Origin: Halorhabdus amylolytica
GTDB lineage: Archaea; Halobacteriota; Halobacteria; Halobacteriales; Haloarculaceae
Assembly (NCBI RefSeq): GCF_004944975.1
Contig: NZ_SPQG01000001.1
Location: 367,116-431,115 of the forward strand
Length of the DNA: 64,000 nucleotides
Reading direction: 5' to 3'
Positions 10,883-20,172 of this stretch are shown here, in pieces. Positions within the stretch are counted from its first letter, which is position 1, and each line of letters begins with the position of its first letter. The notes beneath the pieces are model-generated. The model worked only from the letters and a program-made list of their open reading frames with translations, had not been told where the DNA came from and ran no database searches. A program made the translations under genes and the position numbers.

Positions 10883-12440
10883 TCACGTTCGTTCGTTGCG
10901 CAACCACCGCGTGAGACGTGAGACGAGTCCCAGGTTCCGTTTCGCCATGATGACTGTACTCTCGGCGCCCCGACCGACAGTCTCCGGGATCGCGCCGAAG
11001 ACGAGCTGTGAGAGCAAGCTCTCGCGGGACGAGCCGATCACTGTCAGGTCGTGGTCGGCCGTCCGCTCGACGATCGCCTCGGCGACGGCGTCCGATCCGA
11101 CGACTGTCGTCGAGACGACCAGCTCGCCATCGTCGATCACTGCCCGGGCGCTCTCGAGGCGGGTCTCGGCATCCCCTTCATCGTCGTCAGGTGACCGGAC
11201 ATAGAGCAACTCGATCGCGGCGCCGGTCTCGCGGGCGATCGCGGCCGCGACCTCGGCCGCGAAGGCGGCGTGTGGTCCGCCGGCGGTTGGAACAAGGATC
11301 GAGTCGATCTCGCCGGCGGGGCCGATCCGCTCGACGAGGACGTCACAGTGGCCGTTGAGAACGACGTCGTCGACGTTACTCCCGAGGACGTAATCCGTCC
11401 GCCGGCCGCGGCTCCGCCACCCCATGACGACGAGGTCGACGGCGTGTTGCTCGATCGTGTTGTGGATGGCCCGGGAGACGTCGTGGCCGATCCGGATCGT
11501 CCCGTTGACCGGCAGGTCCGGCGCTGTCCGCTCGACGTAGTCGACCGCGTCGTCGATCAACCCGCGCTGCTCGTCGACGAACGCCCGCCCCTCCGAGAGC
11601 GGGGTCTGGTGGGGGACGGTGACGACGGTCATCACTTCGAGTTCGGCCTCGCGGTCGCGAGCCATGTCGATCCCGGTCCGGAGGAGCTGGGTTGCGTTGT
11701 CCGGGTTGGCGATCGGGACGAGGACGCGCTCCTCGCGCTCGACCGGCGCGCGCTCTTCGAGAACCGTGGGCGTCTCCGCTTCGCGTTTCTCGGCCTCTTT
11801 CGGCCGGGAGTAAGCGTAATAGACGACCAGTCCGAGCGTCATCCAGACGGCGGTCGCACCCAGCGCGAAGAGGCCGTGATTGCTCGTCCCGATTCCGAAG
11901 GCCTCCAGCCCAAGCGCGTAGACGAGAAACGGCAACAGGAGCACCTGCAGTCCGATCCCGATGAGGGGCGGCCACGGCAGGTACGGGACTTCGTAGGTGC
12001 GTGGCAGGTCCGGGTGGGTCTTGCGCATCCTGATGAGCGTCCAGTTGACCTGGACGAACAGCAGGATGAACATGATGTCCGCCGATGCGGCGACGGCCTC
12101 GATCGGCAACGCGACGGCCATGACGGCGATGAACACGGCAGACAACAGGATGGCCCAATGGGGCGTCCGCCGTTCGGCGTGGATCCGCTGGAAGATCCGC
12201 GGGAGTGCGCGATCCCGCCCCATGGCGAAGGACACCCGCGAGGAGGAGTAGACTGTCGCGTTGAGCGCGCTCATCGTCGCCGTCAGCCCGGCGAACAGCA
12301 ACAGGACGACGCCGTAGGGGACGAACTGGCCGGCGGCCTCGATGATCCCGAGTTCACCGAGTCCGCCCAACAGTTCCCAGGTCGGGACGGTTGCCGGCGT
12401 TCCCGTGACGCCGGTCGCGCGCTCGACCAGATGGGTCGTC
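10883..12440 (-). pseudogene. C-terminal fragment of an APC permease-UspA fusion (split gene)
   Basis: Carries the last membrane helices of an amino acid/polyamine/cation permease (FAGLTATMSALNATVYSSSR, then AVALPIEAVAAS) followed by two UspA-type domains ending in SLVSRLTRWLRNER. The intact paralogue at 14965-17388 is 807 residues, so about 300 N-terminal residues are missing. The reading frame stays open upstream to about 12440 (CIEPTTHLVERATGV), where it meets the truncated end of trkA. The missing N terminus lies at about 17800-18208 on the same strand. A TTG at 12370 could start a residual protein, but without the first half of the permease transport is unlikely; the soluble UspA part might still be made. 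Confidence 0.8.
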
Positions 12441-12826
12441 GGCTCGATACAGATACTCGGCGATCAGTTGCTGGGGATTCTCCATGGTATTGACGCCGAT
12501 TTGCTTGAATAGATCCATGTGGTTGGGGTTATGTACAACCGACAAAATCGCGGGGATCTCAAACTCTTGGGCTAGCAGGCAAACCATCACGTTCGTCGCA
12601 TCTTGATCGGTGGTCGAAATAATAGCGTCAGCTTGCTCTGCTCCGGCGTCCTCGAAGGTGTTTTTGACTGTGGCGTCAGCCGTGAGCACCATACAATCAA
12701 ACTCGACCGCGATCTCGTCGGCCTTCTCTGAGTCCTTTTCTATCAGACAACTTCGTTTCCTGAGCGAGTTGCGATGTCGATCAGAGGTGTTCCGATATCG
12801 CCTGCGCCGACGATGATGATATACAT
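12440..12826 (-). pseudogene. trkA: trkA pseudogene (K+ uptake NAD-binding protein), frameshifted and truncated
   Basis: Starts at ATG 12826 with a Rossmann motif (IIIVGAGDIGTPLIDIATR). An in-frame TGA at 12743-12745 follows a one-base loss; in the next frame homology resumes as IEKDSEKADEIAVEFDCMVL and runs through DAIISTTDQDATNVM and TMENPQQLIAEYLYR. It stops there against the permease fragment at about 12440, so the C-terminal part of the TrkA_N domain and any TrkA_C domain are lost. Two independent lesions show it is not functional. Confidence 0.82.
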
Positions 12827-12840
12827 GTTGCTGACTGGTT

Positions 12841-13092
12841 CTAAGAGGATCGACTGCCGGTATTGGAGTCTACTACTGACTGTTCGACGGGTCCGAGGAA
12901 CTCCCAATGAAGAGATTCAGAGCCGCCCACGTGGTTCTCAATCGTCACATTGTAGAGGGTGGGTTGGTTCGAATCTGGTAGTTCTTGGACGACGAGAAAT
13001 CCATCATAATGTGGGTCAAGACGGACAATTTTACCGGGAGATTCTTCTCGGATACGATCTGCTGTCTCCTGTTGATCCTCAGTTAATTCCAT
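12841..13092 (-). CDS. Small acidic hypothetical protein
   Basis: An 83-residue protein (MELTEDQQETADRIRE start) with no motif I recognise. It is predicted to be soluble with alpha then beta content (IVRLDPHYDGFLVV, YNVTIENHV). A GGAGGT Shine-Dalgarno sequence lies 7 nt upstream of ATG 13092, which decides the start. Lies in the AT-richer inserted DNA between the two permease fragments. Confidence 0.55.
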   Translation of the reverse strand: MELTEDQQETADRIREESPGKIVRLDPHYDGFLVVQELPDSNQPTLYNVTIENHVGGSESLHWEFLGPVEQSVVDSNTGSRSS

Positions 13093-13199
13093 GATGACCT
13101 CCAAGTGTGTACACTCTACCTTCAGCACGTGAGAGCGGGCCAGCAACACTGTCCGGTCCTGGTTGATTGGAAATATCTATCGTCGGCCGGTAACCAGTC

Positions 13200-13316
13200 C
13201 TAGCTTCCATGCAATTTCTCCCACTGTTCGACACATTCTTCGCATAGGTACCCCGTGAATCCATCAACCTCGTACCGCTCCGTCGGTTTATCAGCCCCAC
13301 ATCGTTCACATTTCAT
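13200..13316 (-). CDS. 38-residue double-CxxC zinc-finger peptide
   Basis: A short open frame (38 codons plus TAG) begins MKCERCGAD at ATG 13316 and has a second knuckle LCEECVEQW, giving two CxxC pairs 18 residues apart, the layout of a one-zinc ribbon. No function can be assigned. Coding nature rests on the two well-spaced knuckles. Part of the inserted segment. Confidence 0.6.
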   Translation of the reverse strand: MKCERCGADKPTERYEVDGFTGYLCEECVEQWEKLHGS

Positions 13317-13426
13317 GGGTTATCGGTTATGGACAGGGCGTTTCCCAACCCTGGACACCAACGCCCAGTGATAGCAACGATCTGTATCGTGTGTGGCTGT
13401 TTGGGCACTCTTCATCGTATCCGACA

Positions 13427-13861
13427 TTACGCTTCATCTCCCGTGGAGAATGCCACAACAGGATGGTGACTTTCCGTGACCAGTCGGTACGAGGTATTTT
13501 CGGTCAAAAGCTGGTGGAGGCGGTTTTTCGGGCGAGGGGAGAACCCGATTGCCGATACCTCAAGTTCGTCAGCGGCGGCGACGATCTCTTCGATCGTATC
13601 GGACCCATAGCGGAGTTCACGTCTGATTTCGGGACCATCTTCGAAGTAGTCCTCGACATAGTCGAACAACTCTTGGGCTTCTTGTTCGAGGGCTTCGGGA
13701 GAGGCTGGGTCCAAATATCCATCTGTCTGTACAATAACGTGGACGATCGTGATCGTCTCGACCCCAGAATCGAGGTACTGATCTAGAGCGTCACACGTCT
13801 GTTCCGCATCATCCACGTTTGCAACAGGAACAAGGAGGTGAGTGAAGTCTGGTTGGCTCAT
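13427..13861 (-). CDS. Universal stress protein (UspA) family protein
   Basis: A single UspA-domain protein of 144 residues. N-terminal strand HLLVPVANVDDAEQ, a helix-rich middle and C-terminal TSYRLVTESHHPVVAFS match the family. The ATP-binding G-x2-G-x9-G signature is not evident, so it is likely of the non-ATP-binding class. Its position beside a UspA-fused permease suggests a role in controlling transport. Confidence 0.72.
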   Translation of the reverse strand: MSQPDFTHLLVPVANVDDAEQTCDALDQYLDSGVETITIVHVIVQTDGYLDPASPEALEQEAQELFDYVEDYFEDGPEIRRELRYGSDTIEEIVAAADELEVSAIGFSPRPKNRLHQLLTENTSYRLVTESHHPVVAFSTGDEA

Positions 13862-14081
13862 TGGTGATCAACAACTGGTATCGTCGTTCTTGGTGTACCC
13901 ATACACTCGAATCAAAAATATATTTGGGTAATTCGATTGGTTCCGTTATATTAGGGTGAAGAGATTACGATTCGTTTAACCACGTGATCTTGGACCCTTC
14001 TCCGCTAAGACGGGCATTGCCTGACCAAAACTGGCCATCCCACCGTGTGGATTGACTGCCAGAGAGCGGAAACTGGAATCC

Positions 14082-14090
14082 AAATATAAA
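14082..14090 (+). promoter_or_regulatory. TATA element for the Lrp-RCK_C regulator
   Basis: AAATATAAA centred about 37 nt before ATG 14123 in an AT-rich 230-bp divergent region (13862-14122). It implies a short leader of about 10 nt. The same region must also hold the promoter of the leftward uspA gene; a run AAATATATT lies at about 13916-13924. Confidence 0.5.
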
Positions 14091-14122
14091 CCTAAATGGC
14101 GTTCCGCTGGCACGGTATAAAT

Positions 14123-14866
14123 ATGGGAATTGGGATCGATTCAATCGATAAACGAATCCTGTACCACCTGGCCAGGGAAGCCCGACACACGTCCGCTCCG
14201 GATATTGCGCAAGACGTGGATTTATCGGCACCTGCTGTCCGCAACCGGATCAGTCGTCTCGAAGACGCTGGAGCTATCCAAGGGTATCATGCTCACATTG
14301 ATTACGGGAAGGTCGAAAGCCGACTGACGAACCTGTTCATGTGTAGTACCGCCGCCACAGATCGACAGCGGTTCGCTCAACGCGTCCTCGGTGTTCCCGG
14401 TGTCGTCCACGTGCGTGAAGTCATGACCGGGCGCGGTGATCTTCGAGTCAAAGCGGTCGGGTCCGATCAGGACGACCTCATGCGGATCGCACAGGATATC
14501 ACCGCATTGGGCGTCGAAATTGACGACGAGGATCTCATCCACCGCGAGTACTTTCGTCCGTACGCGCAGTTCGGCCCCGAGGAACGAGACGATGTTTCAC
14601 CAGTGACTGGCGTTGCGGATCTCGCCGGCGACGCGGACGTCGTCGAGATCGCCGTCGGAGAGAACGCGCCGGTCGCTGGACTTACCCTCAAGGAGGCCGG
14701 AGACGAAGGACTGCTGACGACAGATGTGCTGGTCGTGACTATAGAGCGCGGCGACCGAGCCATTACTCCGAAGGGCGAGACGACAATAGAGAGTGGCGAT
14801 TTCGTGACAGTTCTATCGAGAACCGGCTTCTCTGACGAGACGCTGACGATGTTCACTGGCAAGTGA
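14123..14866 (+). CDS. Lrp/AsnC-type regulator fused to an RCK_C (TrkA_C) domain
   Basis: A 247-residue regulator. Residues about 1-60 hold the AsnC winged helix (IDKRILYHLAREARHTSAPD ... SAPAVRNRISRLEDAGAI), the middle is an Lrp-like RAM region (VPGVVHVREVMTGRGDLRVKAVG), and the last 80 residues form an RCK_C domain (VVEIAVGENAPVAGLTLKEAG ... ESGDFVTVLSR). RCK_C domains bind small ligands and occur in K+ channels and transporters. ATG 14123 is preferred over 14096 since the TATA element AAATATAAA (14082-14090) is too close to the latter. It lies between a UspA gene and the APC permease operon, both on the opposite strand, so it may control them. Confidence 0.8.
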   Translation: MGIGIDSIDKRILYHLAREARHTSAPDIAQDVDLSAPAVRNRISRLEDAGAIQGYHAHIDYGKVESRLTNLFMCSTAATDRQRFAQRVLGVPGVVHVREVMTGRGDLRVKAVGSDQDDLMRIAQDITALGVEIDDEDLIHREYFRPYAQFGPEERDDVSPVTGVADLAGDADVVEIAVGENAPVAGLTLKEAGDEGLLTTDVLVVTIERGDRAITPKGETTIESGDFVTVLSRTGFSDETLTMFTGK

Positions 14867-14964
14867 TTCGCCCTCGAACAATGACAGAGTTCGGTGGCGA
14901 AATGAGACTATTGGCGATTGATCAGCCGGTGTATCCACCAGTTCTGCACGTGATCGACCGGTAA

Positions 14965-17388
14965 TCAGCTATCTAAACCCGTCGCACGTGCTCCCTTCCC
15001 GATCCACTTGCGGAGAAACTCTTTGATCGCTGACGCTACTGGCCGGTGTTTCCGGACCATGAGCACCTCGCCATCGAAACCCTCCCCGATCGTTTCAGGA
15101 ATGTCTCCGAACAGAGCACGCCGAAGAATTCCCTCTCCTGCAGCACCGATGATGATCGAATCATAGTCCTCCTCGCCAGCGTAGTCAAGTATGGACTGGA
15201 CAACGTTCGATCTCGTTTCGACGGCGAGGTCGACAGCAATACCGGCGTCAGCCAGCGTTTCCTGTCTCCGTTCGAGGGACTCATACGCTTGTTCAGTGTC
15301 GCCTTCAGTTGCAACGTGGAAGAGCGTCACATCGGCGCCGTCTTCCGCATACGCCGTCGCGATGGCCGTCGCGAGATCCTCGTTCGGACCACCAGCAGTC
15401 GGAACAAGGACCCGTTCGGACTCCGTCGTGCCGTCGGTCTTCATGACGGCGACATCGCATTCAGCGTTCTCGACGACCGTGTCGATGGTCGAACCCAGCG
15501 CGTAGTCGGATACGCGCTTGCGCTGGCCCCGCCACCCGAGCAAAACGAGATCGCTGTCGCGCTGATAGGCGATGTTGTTGATACTCTTTGCGACGTCGTG
15601 GCCGATGGTGACGGTCTGGTGAACTGGAATATCGTCGGGCGCGTATTGCATTGCCTCTGCAAGCAGGTCGCGCTGTTCGTCCGCGTATTCTCTCCCCTCC
15701 GAGAGAGGCGTTTGGTCGGGGACGGTTGCAACACTGGTCAGCAGCACCTCACCGTCCTCGTGGCGAGCAATAGCGCTCGCTACGCGGATCAGTTGTTCCG
15801 CGTTTTCGGGATTCGCTATCGGAACCAACACCTGGTAGCCGCGATCTTCGGGCGCGCGTTCTTCGGCTATCAGACGGGTCTCCTCCTCGGCTTCGGTCTC
15901 CCGAACGCGACGTTGTGAGTACAGGAAGAAGATCCCAATGCCGACGAGGATCCACGCGATGGCTCCGTACCAGGCCAGCGGGCTGTAGTTGAAGAGGTAG
16001 ACCGCAAGGGCGAGCTTCGTCAGGATTCCAATAATAGGGACGTACGGGAAGTACGGCATCACGTATCCGTAGTCGATCTGATCTCCCCACTTGCGCCGGA
16101 TGACGATCGCGGCGTAGTTCACCTGGAGGAACAAGAGGAGAAACATCACGTCAGTCGCAGCCGCGACGGCTTCGATCGGGAGTGCGACAGCCATGAAAAT
16201 AATGAGGCCACCAGACAGTGCGGTCGCGATATACGGAGTCTGTTTCTCCGGATGGACCTCGCTGAACGCGTCCGGGAGGACGTGATCTCGGCCCATCGCG
16301 AACGAGACACGTGTCGAGGAGTACGTCGTCGCGTTCAGTGCGGACAGCGTCGAGAACACACCAGCGACGAGAATGACAAGCGTCCCGAAGGGCATGATCT
16401 GGCCGGCTGCCCGCGCAAGCCCGAGTTCACCGAGATGGCCGAGGAGCTCCCAGACGGCGGCGTCTTCGATGCTTCCCGGGATCGGTGGGAGATTTGTCGC
16501 ACCATGAGCTCCGCTGGCTGCCCCCTCCTGGGCCATCCCGAAGAGTTCAGGCGTCACTTCGACTGCGCCGATGAGAACGATCGCCACGAGCATGTAGATC
16601 GTGACGACCACCGACATCGAGTAGAACACCGCCTTCGGAACTGACTTCTTGGGATTGACGACCTCTTCACCCGACTGGACGATGATCTCGTAGCCCTCGA
16701 ACGCGATGAAGGTCAACCCCATCGCGATGAACACGCCGCCGAAGTCACGCGGCAGAAACGGCCTGAATCGGTCGGTTGCCTCCGCCGGGTGCCCGAAGAT
16801 ATAGCCGAAGCCGAACGCGATGAGGACGATAATGACGGTTACCTTCACCATCGTCACGATGTTGCCGGCGAGGCCGGTCTCTTTGGCTCCACGATAGTTG
16901 ATGTACGCGAAGAGCGCGCCCGCGAAGACGGCAAAGAGTTTCTCCGGGCCGAACGAGACAAAGAGGAGATCTACCGGTTCGAAGAGGTGGATGCCGAAAT
17001 AGTCCGTCAGCAGCAGGTGGACGAATGCGCCGAACCCAAGCGTGTACAGCGATCCGGCGACTGCGTGAGCGAACCAGGACATCCACCCCGCGAGGAACGC
17101 CTGTGAACGACCCAGCGCTTCGCGCACCCAGAGATAGCCACCGCCAGCCTCCGGGATTGCGGAGCCCAACTCCGCATAGACCATCCCGGTGAAGATCGTG
17201 ATGAAGCCGTTGAACGCGAAGGCTATCACGAGCCCCGGCCCGGCCTGTCCGGCAGCAAGCCCAGTCAAAACGAAAATCCCGGCACCGATCATGGCGCCGA
17301 TACCGATCATTGTGATATCGAACAGCGAAAGATCCCGGGCCAGTTCGTCACCGTGGTCGTGTCCCGGGAGCCCACTCTCTTCACTCAT
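14965..17388 (-). CDS. APC-superfamily amino acid permease with C-terminal UspA domains
   Basis: An intact 807-residue transporter. The N-terminal 470 residues form about 12 membrane helices of the APC superfamily, with the signature GIGAMIGAGIFVLTGLAAG in helix 1 and the YSSTRVSFAMGRD segment. Two tandem UspA domains follow (YQVLVPIANPENAEQLIRVA and a second with LVPTAGGPNEDLA). Family members carry amino acids or polyamines; the UspA modules are thought to sense nucleotides. The start overlaps the stop of the small membrane gene upstream by 8 bp, indicating co-translation. It is a paralogue of the broken permease on either side of it. Confidence 0.88.
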   Translation of the reverse strand: MSEESGLPGHDHGDELARDLSLFDITMIGIGAMIGAGIFVLTGLAAGQAGPGLVIAFAFNGFITIFTGMVYAELGSAIPEAGGGYLWVREALGRSQAFLAGWMSWFAHAVAGSLYTLGFGAFVHLLLTDYFGIHLFEPVDLLFVSFGPEKLFAVFAGALFAYINYRGAKETGLAGNIVTMVKVTVIIVLIAFGFGYIFGHPAEATDRFRPFLPRDFGGVFIAMGLTFIAFEGYEIIVQSGEEVVNPKKSVPKAVFYSMSVVVTIYMLVAIVLIGAVEVTPELFGMAQEGAASGAHGATNLPPIPGSIEDAAVWELLGHLGELGLARAAGQIMPFGTLVILVAGVFSTLSALNATTYSSTRVSFAMGRDHVLPDAFSEVHPEKQTPYIATALSGGLIIFMAVALPIEAVAAATDVMFLLLFLQVNYAAIVIRRKWGDQIDYGYVMPYFPYVPIIGILTKLALAVYLFNYSPLAWYGAIAWILVGIGIFFLYSQRRVRETEAEEETRLIAEERAPEDRGYQVLVPIANPENAEQLIRVASAIARHEDGEVLLTSVATVPDQTPLSEGREYADEQRDLLAEAMQYAPDDIPVHQTVTIGHDVAKSINNIAYQRDSDLVLLGWRGQRKRVSDYALGSTIDTVVENAECDVAVMKTDGTTESERVLVPTAGGPNEDLATAIATAYAEDGADVTLFHVATEGDTEQAYESLERRQETLADAGIAVDLAVETRSNVVQSILDYAGEEDYDSIIIGAAGEGILRRALFGDIPETIGEGFDGEVLMVRKHRPVASAIKEFLRKWIGKGARATGLDS

Positions 17389-17542
17389 CTGAATCCCTCC
17401 CGCTTTGGTCAGCTAGAGGTCCCTTGTTGTACGTTCCATCTGCGATGTGATCCACGACGTATTTCCCATGTATGACGGTGACTTGGAGGGCGACCCACGC
17501 AAGAAGGGTCAAGATTGCCCCCAGTACCAACGTGGACACCAT
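17381..17542 (-). CDS. Small single-helix membrane protein coupled to the permease
   Basis: A 53-residue protein with one strong membrane helix (MVSTLVLGAILTLLAWVALQ) and a charged C-terminal tail. The start at ATG 17542 gives the helix at the N terminus; a longer reading to 17581 is possible. Its stop lies inside the start region of the APC permease (8-bp overlap), which suggests a small partner subunit, inferred from coupling only. Confidence 0.65.
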   Translation of the reverse strand: MVSTLVLGAILTLLAWVALQVTVIHGKYVVDHIADGTYNKGPLADQSGRDSDE

Positions 17543-17581
17543 GTCTATTCGTTTCCCCAAGCAGGTATTAAAAATTGCCAT

Positions 17582-17800
17582 CTGAATAAGAAACTAGCTA
17601 TTTAAAGTAGGTAGTTATTGTGGACTATCCTTCGGAAAACATTCTGTGAGGAAATGAGAAATCGCAGTGGTCAACAAGCTGCTGTGATGCACAACAGTCC
17701 AAAAACATCTGAAACCGTCAAATCTCATCGGTCAATGTGCACACGCGCTGAACGGCTGATTCGCCTTTCGCTGTATGAAAGAAAGGCACGCATGGAAATC
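17582..17800. other. AT-rich junction segment without recognised gene
   Basis: About 220 bp of clearly AT-richer DNA between the small membrane gene and the permease N-terminal fragment. I see promoter-like A/T runs (CTATTTAAAGTAGG) that could drive the leftward permease operon, but no convincing open frame, inverted terminal repeats or transposase remnant. Confidence 0.5.
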
Positions 17801-18208
17801 ATCCTCCGAAGTTGTGGTAACGTAAACGAGCAGTTCCGTCAGGAAGACGCCGAACGTGACGGCGTACAGCGAGCAAGCGACTGCGTGGGCAAACCAGCTC
17901 ATCCAGCCGGCGAAAAAGCCGTTGGGGTCGACCAATGCCTCCTTGACCCAGAGATACCCGCCGCCGGCCTCGGGAAAGGCAGCCCCGAGTTCGGCGTAGG
18001 AGACGGCGGTGAACAGGGCGACGATCCCGTTGAGGACGAACGCGATCGTGAGTGCGGGACCGGCCATCCCGGCTGCAAAGCCCGTCAGCGCGAAGACGCC
18101 CGCGCCGACCATCGCGCCGACGCCGATGAACGTGATGTCAAAAAGGCCCATGTCCCGCGACAGCTCCGTTTCGACTGCCCCGGAGCTGTCTCCGGCATCG
18201 TGTGCCAT
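17800..18208 (-). pseudogene. N-terminal fragment of the split APC permease
   Basis: Begins at ATG 18208 ([20 protein letters not shown]) and contains the APC helix 1 signature [19 protein letters not shown], then FPEAGGGYLWVKEALVDP and SWFAHAVACSLYAVTFGVF. Homology to the intact paralogue ends near TELLVYV, around 17800-17825, and an unrelated frame runs on to a stop at 17732. Together with the fragment at 10883-12440 it accounts for both ends of one gene; about 190 middle residues are absent from both pieces. Confidence 0.8.
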
Positions 18209-19676: not shown

Positions 19677-19770
19677 GCGGTCACTTACCGTTCTCTGACA
19701 TCTTTCTTCGCTCTATAGCGATTCGTAATTGAGCGAAACGCTCTTAAACGAATCAGTTGAAGAATACGAC

Positions 19771-20172
19771 ATGGGGGAACAACCGAGCGATCTCGAAACC
19801 GTCCGCAGTCGGCTCAACGTCGTCACTCAGGAGACGCGGTTCTCGTTGCTGCAGGACATTTTGGGCCATCCCAACGGGTTGCCGACGCTGAAAGAACTCG
19901 ACTACGTCAATCCCTCGAAGAGCCGGACGACGATCCGTCAGCACCTCGAGGAACTTGTCGACGCCGGGATCGTCGAGGAGGTACTTCTTCCCGAGGACCG
20001 CCGACGCAACGACCGCCCCTACAAGTTCTACGGTCTCAGCGAGGAGGGACGAGCGTTCTTAGAGGAGCACAAACTGCTTCGGGCCGAAGACACGCTGCGG
20101 GAGATCTACAATCGCGTCGAGAAGACCGACGAGATCGAACGGTACGAGGGCGCGCCGCGACCCGAGTGGTGA
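19771..20172 (+). CDS. Winged-helix transcriptional regulator (ArsR-like)
   Basis: A 133-residue DNA-binding protein with a winged helix at about residues 10-80 (TQETRFSLLQDILGHPNG ... SRTTIRQHLEELVDAGIVEE) and a C-terminal helix. The family is common in haloarchaea and usually lacks a defined ligand. ATG 19771 is preferred to a TTG at 19729 because CTCTTAAAC at 19741 lies 30 nt before it, giving a leaderless transcript. A transporter follows 76 bp downstream on the same strand. Confidence 0.75.
   Translation: MGEQPSDLETVRSRLNVVTQETRFSLLQDILGHPNGLPTLKELDYVNPSKSRTTIRQHLEELVDAGIVEEVLLPEDRRRNDRPYKFYGLSEEGRAFLEEHKLLRAEDTLREIYNRVEKTDEIERYEGAPRPEW

Follow-up and report, generated by a model that had tools for sequence, protein, structure and literature searches.

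A split APC-UspA permease gene between psmB and truD in Halorhabdus amylolytica, with a transposon right end and a trkA/permease joint at the edges of the intervening DNA

The closest described systems are APC-superfamily permeases with C-terminal UspA domains (TIGR00909-like, PF13520/PF00324 + PF00582), haloarchaeal clusters of the order permease, Lrp/RCK_C, UspA and trkA (for example on Haladaptatus halobius plasmid NZ_CP085339.1), and transposons of the ISH3 family (NF033541). We compared these with a locus of Halorhabdus amylolytica that lies in a stretch of 64,000 nucleotides, here called the window (assembly GCF_004944975.1, contig NZ_SPQG01000001.1, positions 367,116 to 431,115). Both permeases of the window have the domain order of the first group and haloarchaeal orthologues, but one of them, which we call the resident copy, is split and about 142 residues short. 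The kinds of genes between its two pieces, and their order, are those of the Haladaptatus halobius-type cluster, whereas in the window the cluster sits inside another permease gene and its trkA is broken. The third system resembles a group of elements of which the window holds the right end only: the DDE transposase of complete copies in other genomes is closest to ISH3 and the haloarchaeal distribution is alike, but the score is far under the family cut-off and the complete copies, of 3.6-5.2 kb, carry passenger genes. At the level of titles and abstracts, we found no literature on a permease locus between psmB and truD or on such passenger-carrying elements.

That two pieces of an APC-UspA permease flank foreign-looking DNA carrying its own paralogue, as an earlier note on these letters had proposed, is confirmed, and a single split gene is the likely reading. 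The N-terminal piece (17817..18208, minus strand) comprises residues 1-129 and shows 86-93% identity with intact orthologues across 115 columns, and the C-terminal piece (10883..12448, minus strand) comprises the last transmembrane helices and two Usp domains and is 54-69% identical to intact haloarchaeal orthologues. Both pieces are open frames, lie in the right order on one strand and represent complementary parts of one permease, the first matching positions 1-102 of the Pfam AA_permease model and the second positions 279-467, followed by the two Usp domains. The open frame of the N-terminal piece runs on for 29 residues past residue 129, all of them non-permease, while the C-terminal piece begins at about 12448, 78 bp beyond the start of its listed ORF. 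Alignment to intact homologues puts the missing middle of the protein at about 142 residues (140-148), fewer than the roughly 190 first estimated. A strong match to the C-terminal piece was present in 39 of 392 genomes of the order, counting the window's own. Without the middle transmembrane helices, the split permease most likely no longer works as a transporter.

The DNA between the pieces, hereafter the island, has a GC content of 44-60% vs 65-67% in the two permease pieces and a GC3 of 57-73% vs 83-87%, so that the pieces, unlike the island, resemble host DNA; the island was thus rightly described before as AT-richer, and its composition is uneven. Its gene content was also as described. 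This trkA fragment (TrkA_N; 12442..12826, minus strand) has one frameshift, loses its 3' end at the joint with the permease and shares up to 80% identity with its counterparts in other haloarchaea. Towards higher coordinates it is followed by a small hypothetical protein without family match (12841..13149, minus strand), a UspA domain protein (PF00582; 13427..13861, minus strand), a regulator that joins an Lrp/AsnC-type HTH to a TrkA_C (RCK_C) domain (Pfam HTH_24, HTH_AsnC-type and TrkA_C; 14096..14866, plus strand), and an intact paralogous APC-UspA permease of 807 aa (14965..17388, minus strand), recognized by Pfam and 76-86% identical to its orthologues in nine haloarchaeal genomes. A small protein (sm; 17381..17581, minus strand) is encoded immediately upstream of it, with 55-71% identity to proteins in the same position in the nine genomes. 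The gene order of small protein, permease, opposite-strand lrp, Usp and trkA recurs in L154, L161 and L162 and characterizes a transport cluster common in haloarchaea. A congener has, at another locus, a permease 86% identical to the island permease, and relatives of the latter are carried on haloarchaeal plasmids. Judged by their domains, the two permeases probably transport amino acids and have their UspA domains in the cytoplasm. The divergent island permease is probably under the control of the Lrp-RCK_C protein, and this intact gene, with that regulator, most likely represents the functional copy.

At the N-side break (17816/17817), a transposon right end (17757..17816, plus strand) abuts codon 130-131 of the resident permease, its interior facing the island towards lower coordinates. 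A 41-bp match of the window to a different place in a congener supplied the search pattern for this end; the core pattern matched in 24 of 392 haloarchaeal genomes, and a reversed control pattern in 0. Among 27 aligned copies, conservation is strong up to GTTGTG and random beyond; information content drops from 2.0 bits to 0.2 where the permease sequence sets in. The conserved terminus measures 34 bp (17783-17816), and further inward lies a weaker conserved stretch (ATTC, TGAAA) that the window copy has in common with the others. These alignments show the N-side edge to be the remnant of a passenger-carrying ISH3-like DDE transposon, present by its right end only; neither the left end nor a transposase was found in the window. 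In L197 a tyrosine recombinase gene (L197:6718-7842) lies directly beside a copy of the right end.

Complete elements of this family, 3.6-5.2 kb long, were found in L192 (2841-12376), L194, L195 and L200. Their left end is CACAGTTTCGGAGGATGG, and the reverse complement of the right end starts CACAACCTCGGAGGATGG. Short target duplications accompany them (for example AAGTTG in L195, TCTACT in L200 and TGAAGAAA in L194). Most encode a DDE transposase of ~540 aa (PF01609; the frame in L194 is shorter) with a best match to ISH3 that fails the cut-off of that family (95 bits vs 225), and their passenger genes include those for a putative secreted protein and a FilR1/HVO_A0261-type regulator. Complete elements are sometimes inserted head to tail beside each other. 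The 34-bp core was at first suspected of being an att or dif-like site, since its left and right flanks occur in free combination across genomes; this was discarded given complete elements with both ends, a transposase and short target duplications. The core had no Rfam match as an RNA family, no tRNA that might serve as an integration site lies nearby, and no meaningful terminal or other flanking repeats of the island were detected.

The C-side joint lies within trkA and is of a different kind. At 12440..12448 (minus strand), ATCGAGCCG fits both parents: the alignment of trkA orthologues continues through TAYCGRGCCG, with homology in several genomes reaching 12442-12440, and permease homology runs from ATC GAG CCG, beginning at about 12448, which leaves ~9 nt of microhomology. 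This arrangement suggests an end-joining deletion at the ~9 shared bases. Microhomology end joining is reported to make deletions in Haloferax volcanii (PMC7521656).

The history that we propose, and consider probable with considerable room for doubt, would begin with the gain of a complete, GC-rich APC-UspA amino-acid permease gene in the gap between psmB and truD. A passenger-carrying ISH3-like transposon would then have inserted at about codon 131 of this gene, and the sm-permease-lrp-uspA-trkA cluster would have reached the inner side of its right end, whether carried in as cargo or brought there by some later rearrangement. Since the left end is absent from the window and the trkA/permease joint has microhomology, we infer a last step in which a deletion from inside trkA to about permease codon 272, its ends joined at ~9 shared bases, removed the left end, the transposase and about 142 permease residues. 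No genome with an intermediate state was found. If correct, this would be a readable case in which a haloarchaeal transporter gene was lost and a paralogue gained at one site; it also draws attention to a family of passenger-carrying haloarchaeal transposons whose ends can now be recognized by sequence. It is otherwise an ordinary scar of genome decay, its cause partly readable, and leaves the general picture unchanged.

This history presupposes that both pieces come from one parent gene. As a single-parent test, 33 intact orthologues were compared in every pairing and C-part identity was regressed on N-part identity (slope 1.29, residual sd 4.2); the window pieces gave a mean residual of -0.2 where intact taxa ranged from -2.5 to +3.4. 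The two pieces thus diverge from the 33 orthologues as the two ends of one gene should, and a single parent is likely, the power of the test being limited by an N-terminal piece that is short and very conserved. In trees each piece is a lone branch near the base of the same clade, with nearest rows common to both and the N tree weakly resolved; we saw no sign of the pieces aligning to different parents, the outcome that the earlier note had set against its own reading. An origin from two resident-type copies, one preceding the island permease, the arrangement of Haladaptatus halobius, and one downstream of trkA, each truncated separately, must nevertheless be weighed. Gene order in L161 is collinear with that of the window (intact permease, sm, island permease, lrp, Usp, trkA); the intact resident-type permease there stands directly upstream of the island-type one, so that the N-terminal piece could have travelled with the island, which counts against the history we favour. 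Moreover, trkA of L035 is the immediate upstream neighbour of a resident-type permease on the same strand. We regard such an origin as distinctly unlikely, as it requires two copies and two independent truncations that happened to leave complementary parts, whereas the divergence of both pieces fits one gene and both have the host-like GC3 that the island lacks. A false join of unrelated reads is hardly credible: the assembly is a draft (26 contigs, 3.46 Mb), but the whole region lies within one 505-kb contig, and neither the permease pieces nor the joint region were found a second time in the genome.

How the island came to lie in the gene admits other answers as well. Entry by homologous recombination at a related permease, with the island replacing the middle of the gene, was the mechanism first put forward, and the two permease types do share ~70% identity in their N-terminal DNA; neither joint, however, falls in sequence that is shared with the island permease, one being the transposon right end and the other lying in trkA, and we hold this mechanism very improbable. 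A real, though lesser, possibility is a sub-version of the transposon-and-deletion history that differs in how the cluster came: a solo transposon would have broken the permease, and the cluster would have followed on a plasmid or other DNA, with illegitimate recombination deleting the body of the transposon along with the central part of the permease. Haloarchaeal plasmids do carry such permeases, the cluster is found elsewhere without a transposon end, and the uneven composition of the island agrees with it, at the price of one event more than cargo and deletion would need. The stronger proposal that the whole transport cluster (permease, regulator, UspA and trkA) is cargo of a passenger-carrying ISH3-like family that shuttles genes for transport and secreted proteins among haloarchaea seems unlikely to us; ten other genomes with this permease cluster have no transposon ends near it.

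For the opening step of the transposon-and-deletion history, the relatives are informative. In five of the six congeners psmB and truD are adjacent with ~130 bp between them, and in the sixth the gap holds an unrelated 2.6-kb insert encoding putative secreted proteins (L086:10464-13078), so that the uninterrupted permease expected between truD and psmB in relatives is absent from all six and a long residence of the gene at this place finds no support. Among the orthologues fetched, none of the intact ones has psmB or truD as a neighbour, and L031 has only distant proteasome paralogues. The simplest course is a gain of the permease in the Halorhabdus amylolytica lineage with a break at a later time; repeated losses among the six congeners would be a less simple account. 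The motif GAYCAGCACG upstream of truD is retained in the window, which places the permease cleanly between psmB and truD. Within the genus, DNA has thus entered the psmB-truD gap on at least two occasions. A small HTH gene beside truD (window 19729-20172) has an 86% identical homologue in G055 (L115:7718-8071) that stands beside an intact resident-type permease, without truD.
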